Source: Balneolaceae bacterium (GTDB lineage Bacteria; Bacteroidota; Rhodothermia; Balneolales; Balneolaceae). Taken from it: a stretch of DNA of 35,027 bases. The position numbers and the translations under genes are program-made. Numbering within the stretch: position 1 is the first letter of the stretch; every line of letters starts with the position of its first letter. The stretch spans positions 1 through 35,027 of the forward strand of contig JAFIFA010000214.1 of assembly GCA_020832225.1 (NCBI GenBank), in the 5' to 3' direction. The notes below the pieces were generated by a model that had not been told where the DNA came from, searched no databases, and saw nothing but the letters and a program-made list of their open reading frames with translations. Positions 10,245-34,908 of this stretch are shown piece by piece.

Positions 10245-11432
10245 TTATTTGGTTCCTTTTAAGCCTTTGATGCCCTTAACGGCTTTTTGACTCAGTAAGT
10301 TTGTTTCATAACTGAGAATTCGCCCGTTTTTCTCCCTGTGGCGTTCAAGCGCAATCTCAAGTAGTTCATGGATCAGTTCGCTGAAGGGGATTCCGGACTC
10401 CTTCCAGAGGTAGAACGAAAAGGATCCGGGTATGGTGTTAATCTCATTGAAATAGACCTCGCCACTATCGCTATTTACCAAAAAATCGAGGCGTGCAACA
10501 CCGCTGCAATCGAAAAGCTGGAAAATTCTGACGGAGAGATCCTGAATTTCCCGTGTCATCTTATCCGGGATGTCGGCCGGTATTTTACGGCTTGCTGATG
10601 CCATCCCTTTGGAACTACCCTCTTCACTGAGATATTTATCCCGGAATGAGAGCAACTCTTCGGATCCGAGCGGACGTTCACAGACGCTGGCCATACACTT
10701 CTGCGGTGTACCGAGTACTGAACAGTTGATCTCCATCAGTGGGGTAATTGCCTTTTCAATCAAAACGTGGGCATCATAACGGAATGCAGTCTCAACGGCT
10801 TTGATCAGTGATTTCCTCTCTTTTACAACTTTAACACCGATGCTGCTTCCAAGGTGAACCGGTTTTACCACAAGCGGATAGTCGATCTCTTCTGCCTGTT
10901 CTATGAGCTCTTTCTCGTTCTCAATCCAGTTCTGTTCAAGGAAATCGATTCCATCGGTAACGGGAATGGATTCAGCCCGGCAGAGACGTTTTGCCGTAAC
11001 CTTATCCATTCCGGCAGAAGAGCCGATAACCCCACTACCGGTATAGGGAACGTTGTAAAGTTCGCAGACGCCCTGAAATGCTCCATTTTCACCATCAGCA
11101 CCGTGAAATGCAGCAAGTACAGCGTAAACAGGGTATTCAGCAGGCTTTGAGAAGAGTCCTGTTTTTTCTTCCCTGAGTACAGTCTGCCCGAGTGAGTTTT
11201 TCGTAAAGTAGCATGGTGTACCCTTTTTTTCGAGTTGATCGAGCTTTTCATACTCTTCCAGTTCGAGAAGGGGGGCTCCGGTTAGCCACTGTCCCGATTT
11301 TGTAATGTATAGCGGTACAGGGTTTACGGAAGGATCTTCGATGGCAGCCACTGCCTGAAGTGCCGTGAGCACCGAAACCTCGTGCTCAGGCGAAGCGCCG
11401 CCGAAAGCAATAATGATATTCTTCTTATGCAT
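10245..11432 (-). CDS. ddl: D-alanine--D-alanine ligase
   Basis: This ATP-grasp enzyme joins two D-alanines for the peptidoglycan pentapeptide. It has 395 residues, longer than E. coli DdlB (about 306) because of an extended middle and C-terminus. Diagnostic segments are FGGASPEHEVS near the N-terminus, PYTGSGVIGSSAGMDKVTAK, the ATP-grasp VVKPVHLGSSIGV, GVARLDFLV and the metal/product loop YFNEINTIPGSFSFYLW. The INTIPGS.SFYLW form is found in one branch of the Ddl family, and D-Ala-D-Ala specificity is assumed rather than shown. It is the first gene of the operon ddl - binding lipoprotein - nadK; the start ATG at 11432 follows a short AT-rich upstream region. Confidence 0.88.
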   Translation of the reverse strand: MHKKNIIIAFGGASPEHEVSVLTALQAVAAIEDPSVNPVPLYITKSGQWLTGAPLLELEEYEKLDQLEKKGTPCYFTKNSLGQTVLREEKTGLFSKPAEYPVYAVLAAFHGADGENGAFQGVCELYNVPYTGSGVIGSSAGMDKVTAKRLCRAESIPVTDGIDFLEQNWIENEKELIEQAEEIDYPLVVKPVHLGSSIGVKVVKERKSLIKAVETAFRYDAHVLIEKAITPLMEINCSVLGTPQKCMASVCERPLGSEELLSFRDKYLSEEGSSKGMASASRKIPADIPDKMTREIQDLSVRIFQLFDCSGVARLDFLVNSDSGEVYFNEINTIPGSFSFYLWKESGIPFSELIHELLEIALERHREKNGRILSYETNLLSQKAVKGIKGLKGTK

Positions 11433-11653
11433 AGTCAGTTTTTGTATGAAAATGATGATACAAAGTTCACTCTATAAATCACAGTTTGTTGCAGGTATCC
11501 TTTTTGTCACTATTTAATTTCTCGGCAAACATATTGCAGCATATGACTGCACCGCAAAAAAGTGTTAACTTGCTCTTACAGAAAAAACATGTCGGGAATT
11601 ATCTTTTTGAAGAAAACAGTGTAACATCACCTCGCTCGGGTGCCTTGCCAAAT

Positions 11654-12031
11654 ATGGAGAAACAGAAAATTTTAGTGGTCGAAGATGAGGAGATGACGGC
11701 CAGACTGATCATCTACAGATTGAAAGCATTAGGTTACGATGTGTCTCATGCCAGGGATGGCGTGGAGGGGATGGGGCAGATAAAAAAAATACGCCCCGAT
11801 CTGGTTGTTCTCGATATCATGCTTCCCGGTCTCTCCGGTTTTGAAATATTGGAGGAGCTGAAAGCGGATCCGGAGTTCGATTCGAGTGGCATCAAGGTTC
11901 TGATGTTGACCAATAAAAAGAGCAGCGGTGATGTTTCGCGTGGCTTTAATCTTGGTGCGATGGAGTATGTTTCAAAACCGTTCAAAATGGAGGAGTTTCT
12001 CCTGAGAATGGACCGTGTTCTGAAAACCTGA
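11654..12031 (+). CDS. Single-domain response regulator (receiver only)
   Basis: This 125-residue CheY-like receiver has no output domain. The acidic pocket is EDEE (10-13), the phosphoacceptor is Asp54 in LVVLDIMLPGLSG, the switch threonine is in MLTNK and the conserved lysine is in YVSKPF. The frame is open upstream to 11486, but that part lacks protein-like features, and MEKQKILVVEDEE is the typical start. Partner proteins must carry the output. The gene lies 7 bases before a membrane-anchored helical-repeat protein that is coupled to a glycosyltransferase, so control of polysaccharide synthesis is a reasonable inference. No cognate kinase is adjacent; a HisKA_2 kinase lies about 21 kb away. 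Confidence 0.9.
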   Translation: MEKQKILVVEDEEMTARLIIYRLKALGYDVSHARDGVEGMGQIKKIRPDLVVLDIMLPGLSGFEILEELKADPEFDSSGIKVLMLTNKKSSGDVSRGFNLGAMEYVSKPFKMEEFLLRMDRVLKT

Positions 12032-12038
12032 CCCTGCT

Positions 12039-13154
12039 TTGATCGAATTCTTCACAACCTACGCAGAGAGAATCATTCTTGTGGTTCTCATACTGCTGAT
12101 TCTTGTATCGCTTGTCGTGTTTTCAGGGGCTGTAATGAGCCGGTGGCTGCTCAATCGCAATATCAAACGAAGGGAGAGAATTCGCATCTACTTCGGAGAC
12201 CTGGTAATCCGATATATCTCCGGCGATCTGAGCTTTGAAAAGCTTAAGAGGCAGCTCCATACCGTTACGGACTACATTATTCTTCTTGAGGTGGTTAACC
12301 GGCTCGATCTGGTACTGGAGGGCGAGGAAGAGAGAAGGCTGAAGCGTCTGCTGAACCTGAAGCGCATTCGTGAGTACTTTACGAAACAGTTTGAGAATGG
12401 TAAACCGCTGGATGCTGCCAGGGCTTGTCTCTATTTTTCGAGACAGAGAAAAGTGAAAGAGTCACTGCTGCCGAGAATTGCGGAAAAAACGGTCGATACT
12501 GTGCCGGCCATGGCATATTCGGCCGGTATGGCTATCATGGTGCATGGAAACGCTGCGCAGAAGAAGGTGGTGATCCACAACTTGATGAAGAACAGGGGTA
12601 TATCGAATCAGGCTATGAGCGATCTCATAAAGGCGTTTCAGAGTCATACCACCGACGATCGTGTTGCCGAAGGGGAACTCCTGATGGATTTGATTGCCGC
12701 GCGGAGCTACTCTCCGGAAAGAACCGCTCTTATGATTCGCGCATTGGGAGAGCTCGGTTTCTATGAGAGTGCCGGTTTTTTACTGAATGAATTTGAAGAG
12801 CTTGATGCAGATGATCACGACTGGCTAATAACCGAAGCGCTTATCGACGTGCTAACTGCATTTGGTATGCATGAGATTCAGTCCAAGGTGAGGGAGTGTT
12901 TTGTTGCCTCCTCTTACAATATTGTGCGACGCGCCTCGGCACGGGCTCTTGGGGTTTTTCCTGAGAAAATGAATGTTCATCATTTGGAGTGGTTGCTGGC
13001 AGATTCTGATTTCTATGTGCGGTTCGATGCCGCAAAATCACTAATCGACGGACACGGAATTGATCCGGATGAGCTGAATGTTGTGGCCCTCAGCGAGAGG
13101 GAGTGGAAAGAGCTGAAAGGTGAAATCATGGAATCGATAAAGGAGACAGCATGA
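12039..13154 (+). CDS. Membrane-anchored HEAT-like helical-repeat protein
   Basis: This 371-residue protein is best read from a TTG at 12039, because that start supplies the N-terminal membrane helix (about residues 12-33, ERIILVVLILLILVSLVVF). The first in-frame ATG, at 12135, would cut it. The rest is predicted cytoplasmic and almost all alpha-helical, with paired helices typical of HEAT/armadillo repeats. The clearest are NIVRRASARALGVFP and DFYVRFDAAKSLIDG near the C-terminus. Such repeats act as protein scaffolds. The gene lies between a lone receiver and a processive glycosyltransferase, with a 4-base overlap to the latter. It may relay the receiver's state to the enzyme at the membrane; this is inference. 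No catalytic motif is visible. Confidence 0.7.
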   Translation: MIEFFTTYAERIILVVLILLILVSLVVFSGAVMSRWLLNRNIKRRERIRIYFGDLVIRYISGDLSFEKLKRQLHTVTDYIILLEVVNRLDLVLEGEEERRLKRLLNLKRIREYFTKQFENGKPLDAARACLYFSRQRKVKESLLPRIAEKTVDTVPAMAYSAGMAIMVHGNAAQKKVVIHNLMKNRGISNQAMSDLIKAFQSHTTDDRVAEGELLMDLIAARSYSPERTALMIRALGELGFYESAGFLLNEFEELDADDHDWLITEALIDVLTAFGMHEIQSKVRECFVASSYNIVRRASARALGVFPEKMNVHHLEWLLADSDFYVRFDAAKSLIDGHGIDPDELNVVALSEREWKELKGEIMESIKETA

Positions 13155-14560
13155 GCGATATTGGAGTTAACATTCTGCTCGGCGCCAATATATTCTTCTT
13201 TCTCTATTTCCTCTATGTGAATGGAGCGTATATCGTTCTGATGCTCTTTTCCTTTATTCAGACAAAGAAAGCCAAAAAAGAGAGCGAAATTTTTCAGCTA
13301 AGCGGTCTCTACGATACCGGCCTCTACAAGTCGATCTCTATTTTGGCACCTGCCTACAATGAGGAGGCGAGTATCATTGAGTCGACCAGAGCGCTTCTTA
13401 ATCTCGAGTTTTCGGACTATGAAGTGATCGTTATCAACGATGGGAGTAAAGACTCCACGCTCGAAAAGCTTATAGGGCACTTCGGTTTGAAGAAGATCGA
13501 TAGATATGTGCCACATAACCTTGAAGCCAAGGATGTGCGGGCAGTTTACGGCTCCCGACGATACCCCAGCCTGTTTGTGGTGGATAAGGTAAATGGGGGG
13601 AAGGCTGATGCATTGAATGCGGGAATTAATGTTTCGCGCAAAGATCTGATCTGTGCCGTCGACTCAGACACCCTGCTGGAGCCTACCGTTCTAAAGCAGA
13701 TGCTGATGGCATTTGTCTCGAATCCCGATACAGTTGCCGTTGGCGGCGTAGTGCGTGTAGCAAACGGCTGCACCTTTGAGAATGGCGGTGTAAAGAGTGT
13801 GAGAGTACCTGATTCAGTGATCGGCAGGATCCAGGCTGTGGAGTATCTGAGGGCATTTCTCTTTGGCCGTACTGGCTGGGACTATTTTGACAGCCTTCTG
13901 ATTATATCAGGCGCATTCGGTGTTTTTGACAGAAAAGCAGTAGTGAAAGTTGGGGGTTACCTTCACGATACGGTTGGTGAAGATATGGAGCTGGTTGTGC
14001 GGCTGCACAGGCACTATCGTGAAAAAGGAGAACCCTACCGGGTGCGTTTTCTGCCTAAGCCCGTATGCTGGACAGAGGTGCCGGAGAACTGGACAACGCT
14101 TGGCAAACAGCGAAACCGCTGGCATCGGGGCTTGGCGGATACACTCTGGCGCCATCGGAAAATGATGTTCAATAAAAAATATGGCCGGCTCGGGTTTCTG
14201 GCGATGCCGTTTTTCCTCTTTGTGGAGCTACTCTCTCCCGTTATTGAACTGGTCGGCTACGTTGTTGTGACGGTCTCTCTGATATTGGGGGTCATAAATA
14301 TTCAGTTTGCCGCTCTTTTCATTGCCGCGGCCGTGCTGCTGGGGATGATACTATCTGTACTGTCGGTGATGCTTGAAGAGCTCACCTTCCGTCGCTACGA
14401 TCGGTTGAAGGACGTAATGATACTGATACTCTACGCCTTTCTGGAGAACCTTGGCTACCGTCAAATTCACGCTTGGTGGCGTCTTCGTGGTCTGTTTGAC
14501 TACCTGCGCGGTAACAAGGAGTGGGGTGAGATGGTGAGAACCGGAGCCTTCTCCAAATAG
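13151..14560 (+). CDS. Processive family 2 glycosyltransferase, membrane-bound
   Basis: This 469-residue protein has an N-terminal membrane helix (about 8-35), a cytoplasmic GT-A domain and a C-terminal membrane bundle (about 340-440). The catalytic motifs of processive GT2 enzymes (BcsA, PgaC, hyaluronan synthase) are all visible: APAYNEE, VINDGSKD (Asp97), VDSDT (Asp171, Asp173), SGAFGVF, GEDMEL (general base Asp278) and the acceptor-site QRNRW (320-324). It therefore polymerises a beta-linked polysaccharide and probably threads it through the membrane. The sugar donor cannot be told from the sequence; PgaC-like N-acetylglucosamine transfer is one option. Its start overlaps the helical-repeat gene by 4 bases (ATGA), and the response regulator opens the same operon. 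Confidence 0.87.
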   Translation: MSDIGVNILLGANIFFFLYFLYVNGAYIVLMLFSFIQTKKAKKESEIFQLSGLYDTGLYKSISILAPAYNEEASIIESTRALLNLEFSDYEVIVINDGSKDSTLEKLIGHFGLKKIDRYVPHNLEAKDVRAVYGSRRYPSLFVVDKVNGGKADALNAGINVSRKDLICAVDSDTLLEPTVLKQMLMAFVSNPDTVAVGGVVRVANGCTFENGGVKSVRVPDSVIGRIQAVEYLRAFLFGRTGWDYFDSLLIISGAFGVFDRKAVVKVGGYLHDTVGEDMELVVRLHRHYREKGEPYRVRFLPKPVCWTEVPENWTTLGKQRNRWHRGLADTLWRHRKMMFNKKYGRLGFLAMPFFLFVELLSPVIELVGYVVVTVSLILGVINIQFAALFIAAAVLLGMILSVLSVMLEELTFRRYDRLKDVMILILYAFLENLGYRQIHAWWRLRGLFDYLRGNKEWGEMVRTGAFSK

Positions 14561-14609
14561 GTATTCGCTCAGGCCTAAAACGCTACCCTTCTTAAGGAAA
14601 ACTGTTGAA

Positions 14610-14642
14610 GCCGGGCCTCAATTCAACTTTTTGAAGCCCGAC
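14610..14642. terminator. Hairpin between convergent glycosyltransferase and carB genes
   Basis: GCCGGGC (14610-14616) pairs with GCCCGAC (14636-14642), with one G-T pair, around an inner TTCAA/TTGAA stem. It lies in the 144-base gap between the two convergent genes and could serve both as a terminator. No clear T-run follows on either strand, so the call is tentative. Confidence 0.35.
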
Positions 14643-14704
14643 TCAAATTTAAAATGGTCTGTAGAGGATGATTAGCATGAACAAGCAGTTCAATTCATCA
14701 GCGT

Positions 14705-17533
14705 TTACTTGCTCAGATAGAGATTCTTGAACTCGTAAGGCTTTCTGAAATGCTCATCATCAAAATTATCCATGAAGTAGATACTCTCGCCGGTTGATTT
14801 CATCTCAGGGCCAAGCTCTTTTTTCACTTCCGGGAATTTATCAAACGGGAAGACAGGCTCTTTGATGGCCCAGTTCTTCAGCTTCGATTCCAGATCAAAC
14901 TCCTTCAGTTTTGCACCCAGCATCACCTTTACGCCGATCTTCGCTTCGGGGCGTTGCGTAGCCTTGGCAAGAAACGGAATGGTACGGGTGGTTCGGGGAT
15001 TGGCCTCCAGAATAAAGACTTTTTCATTCTTTACGGCATACTGTACATTCAGAAACCCGACAATCCCCATCTCTTTAGCGATGCGGTATTGATACTCCTC
15101 AATGGTCTTGATAACCTCCTTGCTGAGGGAGTAGGGTGGTACTACTGCGGTTGAGTCGCCTGAGTGAACCCCGGCTGGCTCAATGTGCTGCATGATGCCG
15201 GCAATGTGAAGCTGTTCGCCATCGAAGACGGAGTCGACATCCACCTCTACTGCTTTGTCGAGATATTTGTCGATCAGGAAGTCGTTTTCCGGGTGAGTTT
15301 CCAGAATTCGCTCCACATACCGGCCTAACTCGTCCTCTTTGACCGCAATCCGCATGCCCTGCCCGCCAAGTACATAGCTTGGACGTATCAGTACCGGGTA
15401 ACCAACACGATCTGCGATTGCGAGCGCATCTTCGGAGTTTCGTGCGGTTCCATATTCCGGGAAGGGAATGTCCAGTCGCTTCAGGAACTTTGAGAATTCG
15501 CCCCTGTCTTCTGCGAAGTCGATCTTCTCAAATTCGGTTCCAAAGATCTTGATACCCGCTTCAACGAATCGTTTTCCGAGTTTAAGCGCGGTCTGTCCTC
15601 CAACCTGCAGGATTACGCCTTCAGGTTTTTCATGCTCAAAAATGTCGAGAACCCGCTCCCAGTATACCGGCTCGAAGTATAGTTTATCGGCAATATCGAA
15701 GTCGGTGGATACGGTTTCGGGATTACAATTTACCATAATCGCTTCGTAGCCCATCTCCTGAGCAGCCAGTACGGCATGTACGCAGGAGTAGTCGAACTCA
15801 ATGCCTTGACCAATACGGTTCGGGCCGCTGCCAAGAATCATCACTTTCTTGCGGTCGGTAACTTCACTCTCGTTTTCCGATTCGTAGGATGAGTAGTAGT
15901 ATGGCGTTTCGGCCGGGAATTCTGCGGCGCAGGTGTCTACCAGTTTGAAAACCGGCTTGAGGCCCATTTCAAGCCGCTTTTTACGTACATCATCTTCATG
16001 GAGATCTTTCCCACCTTTACTGAGCAACCATGCGATCTGCACATCGGAAAAACCGGCCTGCTTCATTTCGTACAGATCCTCTTTGCTGATTGTATCAAGA
16101 GATTGCCCTTCGGTCCGGTTTTCCAGACTCACCATGTGGCGTATCTGCTGAAGGAACCAGGGGTCAACCTTTGTGATGTCGGCGATCTCTTCGACGGAAG
16201 CGCCCATTTTGAAGGCGTTTCGGATCTGCATGGTTCGATCCCAGTAGGGTTTAACGAGACGTTCCCTTATCGTCTTACGATCGGGGTTGTCGTAGCCATC
16301 CGCACCGAGACCGCTTCGTCCAACTTCAAGAGACTGCCACGCCTTGTTGAGTGCTTCAGGGAAGTTTCGCCCGATCGACATCACCTCACCTACCGCTTTC
16401 ATCTGGGTGGTGAGCTCTTCGTCCACGCCCGGAAACTTGTCAAAGTTGAATCGGGGAATCTTAACCACTACATAGTCGATGGATGGTTCAAAGCAGGCCG
16501 AGGAGACCTGGGTGATCGGGTTTGGCAGTTCGTCGAGCGTGTAGCCAACGGCCAGTTTGGTTGCTACTTTCGCAATCGGGTAGCCGGTAGCCTTGGAGGC
16601 AAGCGCAGAAGAACGGCTCACCCTGGGGTTGATCTCAATTGCTACAAGGCGATCAGAGCCAGGCTCCATCGCAAACTGAACGTTACAACCTCCTGCAAAG
16701 TCACCAATGGAGCGCATCATCTTAATGGCGGCATCCCGTAAAATCTGGTACTGCTTGTCGGTAAGGGTCTGTGTTGGAGCCACGGTTACGGAGTCGCCGG
16801 TGTGAACCCCCATCGGGTCGAGGTTTTCGATCGGGCAGACAATTACGACGTTGTCATTCCTGTCCCGGAGCAGTTCAAGCTCATACTCCTTCCAGCCAAA
16901 GATGCTCTCCTCAATCAGAACCTGATGCACAGGGCTGAGTTCAAGCCCGCGTAGAACCTTGCGTTCAAATTCACTCTCATTCCAAACGATGCCACCACCG
17001 GTGCCGCCCAGCGTGAAGGAGGGGCGGATCACAATTGGCAGGCCGCCAAGCTCCTCTACAATCTCTTTGGCATCCAACAGGGAGTTGGCCGTACGGCTGC
17101 GGCACTGCTCAATGCCGATGCTCTCCATCAGATCGCGGAAAAGCTGACGGTCTTCGGTGATGTCGACCGCATCCATGTTTACGCCGATAATCTTAACTCC
17201 GTTCTCTTTCCAGAACCCTTCGTGCTGCAGGTCGCGAGCCAGATTGAGCGCCGTCTGTCCACCCATGGTCGGGAGAACTGCATCCGGCTTCTCTTTAGCT
17301 ACAATCTCCTTGATAGAGGTGGTTGTGAGCGGTTTGAGATAGATCGAATCGGCCATCATGGGGTCAGTCATGATCGTGGCCGGATTGGAGTTGATCAGAA
17401 CAACCTTATATCCTTCCTCTTTGAGAGAGCGACAGGCTTGTGTCCCTGAATAGTCAAATTCGCAGGCCTGGCCAATTACAATGGGGCCGGAGCCTATAAT
17501 CAGAATTTTTGAGATATCTTCGCGGCGTGGCAT
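14705..17533 (-). CDS. carB: Carbamoyl-phosphate synthase large subunit, short form
   Basis: CarB makes carbamoyl phosphate from bicarbonate, ammonia (from CarA) and two ATP, feeding pyrimidine and arginine synthesis. The two homologous ATP-grasp halves are both complete: [20 protein letters not shown] near residue 14 and [20 protein letters not shown] near residue 567. Each half has its RPSF/RPSY.LGG.G and EINPR/EANPR motifs. The protein has 942 residues against about 1070 in E. coli and ends soon after [15 protein letters not shown]. The C-terminal MGS-like regulatory domain, which binds UMP and ornithine in enterobacteria, is therefore absent. The stop is followed by non-coding sequence, so this is not a frameshift within view. 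It lies downstream of carA across a repeat element. Confidence 0.95.
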
Positions 17534-32970: not shown

Positions 32971-33156
32971 GAGATTTATACTATATTGGTTGCCCTCTTG
33001 TAAACTGCGTTACAGTTACATACGGCAGGATTATTAGGGGTACAGACGGAAAATTAACAGGCAGTATAGGGGAAAACTGCCCAACTACAGACAGTGCCAC
33101 AGTATACAGGGTTGAGGTTTGCCCGGAGACAGCTGTGTGCTGTCGGGCTTTACGCT
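32971..33156 (+). other. Structured leader upstream of the histidine kinase gene
   Basis: This 186-base stretch carries two hairpins in the sense of the kinase gene. The first is GGCAGT (33060-33065) with ACTGCC (33076-33081). The second is at about 33121-33148, where GCCCG pairs with CGGGC and ACAGC pairs with GCTGT. The frame of the kinase stays open upstream to a GTG at 33094, but the codons there overlap the second hairpin and do not look coding. No known riboswitch class was recognised. Confidence 0.3.
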
Positions 33157-34908
33157 TTGACGGAAAAAATCAAAAGCATATCGTGGGGTAACATCAAGCC
33201 GGTTACGGGTGTAATCGTGCTATTCGTGTTCCTGGGAGCAGTTTTGCTGCTTATGAACAACTACGGGAATAAGTTCCTGGATGGCGCCAGAGGGTATATT
33301 ATGGGGGAAAGCTATTGGGCCTCAGCACAAAAACAGGCTTCACTCTCCCTCATACGCTACATCGATACGGATGATGATGAGGCATATCTTGCTTTTCTGG
33401 GTCACCTGGATGTAGTTGAGTCTGCACGGCAGGGAAGAAACGAGTTGCTTAGCACCGATCCCGATTACGATGTGGTCCGAACCTACTACCAAAACATCGG
33501 CCACAGGGAGCAGGACATCGATGGATTGATCTGGTTATATGAGAATTTTAAAACATTTCCTCAAATCCAGAGGGTCGTTGATCGTTGGATTGAAGGGGAG
33601 ATGCTGACCGAACAGATGCGCCGGGCGGCAACGCTGACATACGATCTCGGAGTGGCCGGAGAGTTAAACAGAGAGGAGCGACAGCGTCTTATGATTCGGG
33701 TCTACACTCTTGATCAGCGGATCACCGAAAATCAGACAGCGTTGAAGAACGAATTGAAAGAGGCAGCCGATTGGGCCTCATCATTGGTTTACTGGTTTAA
33801 TGTTGTTGTTATACTGATACTTTTCTTTGCAGCGGCCACCTTCCTGATCCTGCAGATTCGTACCATTCGGAAGTATGGCAAGAAAGTGCGTGTTTCTGAA
33901 AACAAGTTCCGCGATGTTCTGAACTACTCCCGTGATGTGATCTATCGTCTCGACGTTAATACGGGCAAATATGTATACATGAGCCCATCGGTGAAGAAGA
34001 TAACCGGATATGATGTAAAGGAGTTTATGGAGGGGGGAATCGATTTTGTGCTCGATATCACACACCCTGAAGATGCGAAGAGGATGGAAAGTGAAGTAGT
34101 GGATTATGACGCTGCTAATGCCGTTGAAAAACTCTCTCAGGATAGTGAGTTCAGGATAAAGACAAAAGATGGACGCTATATCTGGATCAACAACAAGCGA
34201 TCCCTGGTTCTGAATGGGGATGGAAAAGCGACCGCAATAATCGGTAACGTCAGGGATATCTCAGAGCGTAAAGAGTACGTTGAGGCACTGGATGCATCAC
34301 TGAAGGAGAAGGAGATGCTTCTCTCCGAGATACATCACCGTGTTAAAAATAACCTCTCCATTGTGTCGAGTCTGGTGGAGTTACAGAAGAGTAGTTTTGA
34401 AGGGGAAGAGAGCAAGGCAGATGCAAGCCTATCGGAGATTCAGTCCCGAATCAAATCGATCGCCCTTGTTCATGAAAAGCTTTATCAAAACGAGACCTTC
34501 GCTGATATTGATCTCTCTGATTATATCGCCGACCTGGTCGACATGATCCACACAACGTTTGCGTCGAAGAAGCGAAATATCACAATGAATAAAGAGATGG
34601 ATTCGCTGATTGTGGATATCAAAGAGGCCGTTCCGCTTGGTTTGATCTGCAATGAACTGATCAACAACTGTTATAAATACGCTTTTACCGACAGGGATAG
34701 TGGTGAAATTCGGATCGAACTAAGCGTAAACGGGGAGACGGCTGAACTGAAGGTCTCAGATGACGGGGTCGGACTGCCGGATGACTTCGACAAGGAGAGC
34801 ACTTCGCTTGGAATGACGCTAATTAATGTTCTGACTCAACAGATAGGTGGTGAGTTGAACTTTGAATCTGATAATGGTACCACAGTTACGATTACATTTG
34901 AAGTGTGA
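33157..34908 (+). CDS. Sensor histidine kinase with PAS and HisKA_2/HATPase domains
   Basis: Read from a TTG at 33157 the protein has 583 residues; a GTG at 33094 would add 21. A first membrane helix (about 15-34) leads to a helical periplasmic sensor (about 36-210), a second helix (212-235) and a linker. A PAS domain (about 247-375) ends in the PAC motif IIGNVRDISERK. The dimerisation helix EIHHRVKNNLSIVSSLVELQ (His393/His394) is of the HisKA_2 type, found in kinases such as PdtaS. The ATP-binding domain has NELINNCYKYAF (N box), VSDDGVGLPDDF and the late glycine-rich SLGMTLINVL. It autophosphorylates on histidine and passes phosphate to an unlinked response regulator. No receiver gene is adjacent. 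The periplasmic signal is unknown. Confidence 0.88.
   Translation: MTEKIKSISWGNIKPVTGVIVLFVFLGAVLLLMNNYGNKFLDGARGYIMGESYWASAQKQASLSLIRYIDTDDDEAYLAFLGHLDVVESARQGRNELLSTDPDYDVVRTYYQNIGHREQDIDGLIWLYENFKTFPQIQRVVDRWIEGEMLTEQMRRAATLTYDLGVAGELNREERQRLMIRVYTLDQRITENQTALKNELKEAADWASSLVYWFNVVVILILFFAAATFLILQIRTIRKYGKKVRVSENKFRDVLNYSRDVIYRLDVNTGKYVYMSPSVKKITGYDVKEFMEGGIDFVLDITHPEDAKRMESEVVDYDAANAVEKLSQDSEFRIKTKDGRYIWINNKRSLVLNGDGKATAIIGNVRDISERKEYVEALDASLKEKEMLLSEIHHRVKNNLSIVSSLVELQKSSFEGEESKADASLSEIQSRIKSIALVHEKLYQNETFADIDLSDYIADLVDMIHTTFASKKRNITMNKEMDSLIVDIKEAVPLGLICNELINNCYKYAFTDRDSGEIRIELSVNGETAELKVSDDGVGLPDDFDKESTSLGMTLINVLTQQIGGELNFESDNGTTVTITFEV

Follow-up and report, generated by a model that had tools for sequence, protein, structure and literature searches.

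A receiver, HEAT-repeat and glycosyltransferase gene trio of a Balneolaceae bacterium as a candidate phosphorylation-gated polysaccharide synthase module

Introduction

Post-translational control of synthase-type exopolysaccharides frequently involves cyclic di-GMP (c-di-GMP) (PMC12802240). In Myxococcus xanthus, the phosphorylated form of the lone receiver EpsW activates the polysaccharide enzyme EpsZ post-translationally (PMC12802240), and this is the closest precedent for the operon described here, in which genes for a single-domain receiver, a membrane-anchored HEAT-repeat protein (HEAT protein) and a family 2 glycosyltransferase (GT2) membrane synthase follow one another. The operon was found on a 35,027-nucleotide contig of a Balneolaceae bacterium (JAFIFA010000214.1; contig C196 of genome G000 in our numbering), the whole of which is referred to as the window. 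The draft genome comprises 3.37 Mb in 231 contigs and is 96.5% complete. EpsZ differs from the synthase of this operon in being a phosphoglycosyl transferase of a Wzx/Wzy pathway which is contacted directly by EpsW, and no HEAT partner is named for it in the available part of that report (PMC12802240).

PgaC/IcaA has the GT2 synthase type in common with the trio but differs in its partners, which here are a HEAT protein and a receiver. BcsA and the hyaluronan synthases resemble the synthase over the full length of the fold (Z about 19-29) and in the QxxRW motif, whereas the synthase here has no PilZ domain, is only 13-19% identical to them and has other partners. The Escherichia coli yaiO-yaiX-yaiP-yaiS region has a GT2 enzyme near a YaiO barrel, as in loci related to the trio, but HEAT or receiver genes are not annotated there; YaiP was rejected as a counterpart, being a distant GT2 relative (29% over a 258-column stretch only). 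The CP4_0467-CP4_0468 pair of Clostridium perfringens NELoc-2 is tabulated as an adjacent HEAT-repeat protein (377 amino acids, aa) and GT2 'chitin synthase' (466 aa) (PMC2879425). The likeness is one of annotation only, and the available part of that source places no receiver directly beside the pair and proposes no joint function for it (PMC2879425). Two other leads were dropped, namely the twisted-stalk sfz genes, for which the main text mentions neither HEAT repeats nor a receiver, and a Xanthomonas 'HEAT repeat' match, which was an unrelated effector table. No description of a receiver-HEAT-synthase system was found in the open-licence PMC literature, judged mostly by titles and the openings of abstracts.

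Organization of the Locus and Predicted Products

All three genes lie on the plus strand, between a divergent ddl (10245-11432, minus strand) and a convergent carB (14705-17533, minus strand). The receiver gene (11654..12031; 125 aa) is followed after a 7-base gap by the TTG-started HEAT gene (12039..13154; 371 aa), which overlaps the synthase gene (13151..14560; 469 aa) by 4 bases; positions and spacing are exactly those given in a preliminary description of this DNA, and the genes form one operon. A scan of the locus for promoters and terminators gave a signal close to shuffle level. The receiver can also be read as a longer, TTG-started frame from 11486, but the ATG at 11654 is favoured since the receivers of relatives are mostly 118-131 aa long.

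The receiver contains PF00072 alone (Response_reg, 1.1e-24) and is similar in length to its relatives. The residues of a single-domain response regulator are all present (acidic pair E10/D11, D54, T86 and K108). Across 35 aligned stand-alone receivers, the position of the predicted phospho-acceptor Asp54 (11813..11815, plus strand) holds aspartate in 33 and glutamate in two, and that of Lys108 (11975..11977, plus strand) holds lysine in all. Against the EpsW model NF041866 the receiver scored 57.1 bits, under the cut-off of 200.

The HEAT protein gave an above-cut-off match to HEAT_2 (PF13646, 1.4e-7), a domain found in 56/56 aligned HEAT proteins. Its lone transmembrane (TM) segment (residues 12-30; 12072..12128, plus strand; hydropathy 3.29) has an N-terminal TM-like equivalent in 54 of these 56. 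The AlphaFold2 (AF2) model, with a predicted local distance difference test score (pLDDT) of 94.9, begins with a long helix (residues 2-60), after which comes an alpha-solenoid (residues 61-371; 12219..13151, plus strand) which is predicted to be cytosolic. The closest PDB structures were artificial alphaReps and importin solenoids, that is, generic binding scaffolds, and the fold therefore tells no function.

The synthase matched GT2 families in Pfam (PF00535, PF13641 and PF13632; 1.7e-21). It has the sequence features of processive GT2 synthases, namely DxD, a TED-like GED, QxxRW and TM helices after the glycosyltransferase (GT) domain. The conserved Asp97 (13439..13441), the DxD motif (DSD, residues 171-173; 13661..13669), GED in the TED position (residues 276-278; 13976..13984) and the QRxRW motif (QRNRW, residues 320-324; 14108..14122), all on the plus strand, were each found in 64/64 aligned synthases. 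The AF2 model (pLDDT 90.9) resembles hyaluronan synthases over nearly its full length (Z about 26-29, 378-393 residues; for 8snc, Z 29.4 over 387 residues at 3.0 A), while the best fold match was an archaeal mannosyltransferase (Z 32.1 over 340 residues). Processivity is thus argued from motif and family rather than from fold alone, and the synthase is probably processive. By score, the nearest NCBIfam model was PgaC/IcaA TIGR03937 (160.3 bits against a cut-off of 422.3), and cellulose synthase CelA/BcsA TIGR03030 gave 42.2 bits, under its cut-off of 699.1.

The lone receiver, one-helix HEAT-like protein and GT2 synthase named in the preliminary description were matched by Pfam, hydropathy and AF2. 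Its label of a BcsA/PgaC-type synthase does not hold as regards membership of either curated family.

Conservation within the Order

Conservation was surveyed in 58 genomes of the window's order, with the bacterium's own genome included in the GGDEF and PilZ scans described below. HEAT was detected in 23 of these genomes. Members of the window's genus, and of a second genus in the family (G028), have the trio between ddl and carB, an arrangement here called type 1 (slices L022, L024, L026, L027 and, where carB is partial, L025). Wherever the contig holds both flanks, type-1 trios keep this ddl-carB site (window 10245-17533). In other loci the trio genes are accompanied by an adjoining histidine kinase, hybrid kinases, a YaiO barrel or a sulfatase/TPR protein, and the HEAT proteins of these loci are about 16-26% identical. 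Among 34 synthase-bearing slices, HEAT was present in 34, a receiver in 33, a kinase in 16 and YaiO in 20. The only slice without a receiver (L095) stops at a contig end, and the HEAT count is not independent because the loci were mostly found through HEAT.

Conservation across Phyla

The synthase alignment alone was used as query against genome contigs, and the figures given here refer to the best 80 of 558 confirmed stretches; a scan of the genome contigs with the window's HEAT protein as query gave no match. Seven of the 80 loci, with fewer than 900 bases upstream of the called open reading frame (ORF), were left out, giving 73 informative loci. HEAT profile matches lay directly upstream of the synthase in 69 of these, and in 72 after correction of L124 (over-extended synthase ORF) and of L152 and L170 (diverged HEAT, matched by Pfam HEAT_2), L175 having no HEAT at this position. 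Of the 64 loci with enough sequence beyond HEAT, 57 have a same-strand, receiver-containing ORF no more than 2.5 kb upstream of it, and in 48 of the 64 the distance is within 300 bp. By size, 38 of the 57 are shorter than 170 aa and 19 are longer; ORF starts were taken as the longest readings, and some of the 'long' receiver genes are therefore over-extended. No ORF in the 80 loci joins receiver to HEAT or HEAT to GT. The gene-order conservation is far above chance.

By record title, the loci come from Bacteroidota/Balneolota, Ignavibacteriota, Gemmatimonadota, Acidobacteriota, Bacillota, Pseudomonadota, Actinomycetota, Spirochaetota, Cyanobacteriota and others, many being metagenome-assembled genomes (MAGs). 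The nearest named loci are those of Balneolaceae MAGs (L103 and L104), and isolates with the module include Geothrix fermentans, G. rubra, Halolactibacillus alkaliphilus, Bacillus infantis, Brevundimonas sp. Root608, Idiomarina aquatica, Desulfosporosinus sp. HMP52 and Solirubrobacter taibaiensis. The module also occurs on contigs labelled as archaeal MAGs (L143, L149 and L157), which may be contamination through binning errors or may reflect transfer.

Within Bacteroidota, the window's phylum in the scheme used, the synthase subfamily (E <= 1e-100) was present in 94/395 genomes and 49/170 genera. In 40 loci picked by hand across the score range, HEAT lay upstream in all 40, a receiver in 32, YaiO was found in at least 22 and a kinase in 11. 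Ten further loci were chosen for low score, eight from Bacteroidota and two being second copies in genomes of the named isolates. HEAT was present in eight of these ten; the other two are a 305-bit synthase relative (the B. infantis second copy) and a stop-split synthase gene. An upstream receiver was found in none of the ten, and one has a receiver downstream. On these counts HEAT is the mark of the synthase subfamily as a whole, and the receiver that of its higher-scoring part. HEAT and synthase are the near-invariant core, and the receivers are exchangeable inputs which are absent from some branches. Conservation of the trio in related genomes, which the preliminary description had proposed as a test, was strongly borne out by the counts from both surveys. 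Synthases of 1134-1270 aa with a long extra region were also seen in several Bacteroidota families (L249, L255, L256, L257, L258 and L262).

The tighter tie of HEAT to the synthase (40/40 against 32/40 for the receiver, and 8/10 against 0/10 in the low-scoring loci) would suit a different explanation, in which HEAT is a mere assembly or stability partner comparable to the co-synthases BcsB or PgaD and the receiver works at another point, such as in phosphate transfer for the neighbouring kinases or as their phosphate sink. The extra receiver domains (RECs) and hybrid kinases of several loci point the same way. This explanation is considered unlikely, as the receiver gene ends within 300 bp of HEAT in 48 of the 64 loci, which are from diverse phyla, and does so in the window too, where no kinase gene adjoins it.

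It is decidedly more doubtful that the receiver governs gene expression, or the localisation of a surface-polymer machine with HEAT as positional scaffold, rather than catalysis. Single-domain receivers can belong to phosphorelays or localisation systems, and solenoids are generic binding scaffolds. However, the Pfam scan detected no DNA-binding domain in the trio proteins, and the membrane anchor together with the near-invariant synthase pairing suggests a local role.

Signalling Inputs and c-di-GMP

Kinase genes adjoin related loci, some directly beside the receiver. In a Spirochaetales MAG, a synthase with a C-terminal Hpt domain (L118:6950-8674; 41.3 bits, HxxKG motif) was found in a cluster with the order kinase (dCache)-REC-REC-YaiO-HEAT-GT/Hpt-REC. 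The adjoining kinases and this fusion support a putative phosphorylation control of the trio. On the synthase tree, in which 15/64 rows were without label, the single versus multidomain receiver label requires eight changes, at least five of them forced by well-supported branches. Receiver architecture thus changes repeatedly while HEAT-GT is constant, which implies that the front end is swapped while HEAT-GT stays. In the bacterium itself, 19 HisKA matches above cut-off were found in the genome. The window itself also encodes a PAS-HisKA_2 histidine kinase (33094-34908), at a distance of about 18.5 kb from the trio.

Among 20 longer receiver proteins, REC was found in 20, Hpt in nine and GGDEF in eight, with several having the architecture Hpt-REC-GGDEF-REC. 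Bacillus infantis, Halolactibacillus and others have proteins of this type encoded immediately upstream of HEAT, which could mean that c-di-GMP is the true activator. The receivers would then feed diguanylate cyclases, and the nucleotide would bind to HEAT or to the synthase at a non-PilZ site. A synthase with such a site, BgsA, has reportedly been described. This was weighed against the genomes of the window's order, where no GGDEF match above cut-off was obtained in any of the 58, the bacterium's own included, with one weak match in G015 (the search controls were matched in 8/14), although 23 of them have HEAT. PilZ was found in one of the 58 genomes (G057), not in the bacterium's own, and in none of the 64 synthases, that of the window included. 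With no GGDEF in the lineage and no PilZ in the synthases, a c-di-GMP switch is unlikely for the window's organism; for this lineage it is largely refuted, and taken over all loci we consider it very improbable. The preliminary description had seen no PilZ domain in the synthase, which the wider counts strengthened, and had inferred a control unlike that by c-di-GMP and PilZ, which holds for the window's lineage but does not extend to other phyla, where the receiver gene often has a GGDEF domain. The c-di-GMP-free reading, drawn from domain content, is accordingly limited here to the former.

Several observations weigh against phosphorylation gating of the synthase through HEAT. No kinase adjoins the trio of the window or of the other type-1 slices. 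The synthase-Hpt fusion was found in one of 64 synthases, and that from a MAG, and the GGDEF domains in eight of the 20 longer receiver proteins indicate that c-di-GMP may matter in other phyla. Eight of the 40 Bacteroidota loci have no upstream receiver (one of these slices stops at a contig end), nor has any of the ten low-scoring loci, and HEAT-GT can therefore exist without a neighbouring receiver; the phosphorylation control proposed earlier for the trio gains from the kinases and the fusion but is qualified by such pairs. In two Desulfosporosinus receivers (L122:369-749 and L166:5531-5914) the phospho-acceptor is replaced by glutamate, perhaps as a fixed 'on' form. Moreover, linkage is a sign of a shared process and not of direct contact.

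YaiO and Its Possible Role in Export

YaiO (PF19413) was detected in 23/58 relatives, in 22 of them above cut-off. HEAT and YaiO occur together in 21 genomes, HEAT only in two (G041 and G046), YaiO only in two (G030 and G035) and neither in 33 (Fisher p 1.7e-11, kinship not corrected for). G030 and G035 each hold one locus with receiver, HEAT, synthase and YaiO which was too diverged for the first query (L248 and L250). The bacterium's own YaiO lies outside the window on contig C11 (169.6 bits), and a kinase match lies at a distance of about 5 kb from it. The in-house YaiO profile was built with 10/27 slices left out, having stops in the assumed frame; as the in-house profiles miss E. coli YaiO, the slice-based YaiO counts (34 slices and Bacteroidota) are lower bounds. 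Two synthases (L037:9078-11663 and L035:5054-7120) have long C-terminal extensions with no Pfam match, and since their genomes, G041 and G046, gave no YaiO match, such an extension may replace YaiO. A sulfatase-fold protein is encoded near YaiO in L028, L033, L081, L082, L110 and L121, with TPR repeats in the scanned L028 and L081, and could modify the polymer.

Proposed Mechanism and Significance

On balance, we lean towards a phosphorylation-gated polysaccharide module of the synthase type, with the signal passing from kinase to receiver to HEAT scaffold and so to gating of the synthase. The receiver would be phosphorylated by a histidine kinase from another part of the genome and would bind the cytosolic HEAT solenoid. 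The single TM helix would hold HEAT beside the synthase as its dedicated partner, a role suggested by the near-invariant pairing and the topology. The phosphorylated receiver would then act post-translationally as an on or off switch for the synthase, without requiring c-di-GMP, both the contacts and the sign of the effect being presumed. Judged from fold and motifs, the synthase would polymerise a UDP-sugar and move the chain, likely an amino-sugar or glucan chain, across the inner membrane. Because it co-occurs with the trio, an outer-membrane barrel of the YaiO type, whose gene lies at another place in the genome, may assist export. The chances are even that this extends to a pan-bacterial synthase class, in which the phosphorylation of a receiver is converted directly into synthase activity by a HEAT-solenoid co-subunit and the phosphorelay front ends are exchangeable, as a phospho-gated counterpart of PilZ/c-di-GMP control.

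As far as gene content can indicate, the recurrence of the trio over many phyla points to a little-studied phosphorylation route to surface polysaccharide. If true, environmental signals would have a second general path to the polymer of biofilms or capsules, one present in a lineage without detectable GGDEF proteins, and HEAT would be a defined synthase partner for purification and assay. Extrapolated from the 94/395 Bacteroidota genomes, it would also offer a function hypothesis for many neighbouring genes which are annotated only as HEAT-repeat protein or glycosyltransferase.

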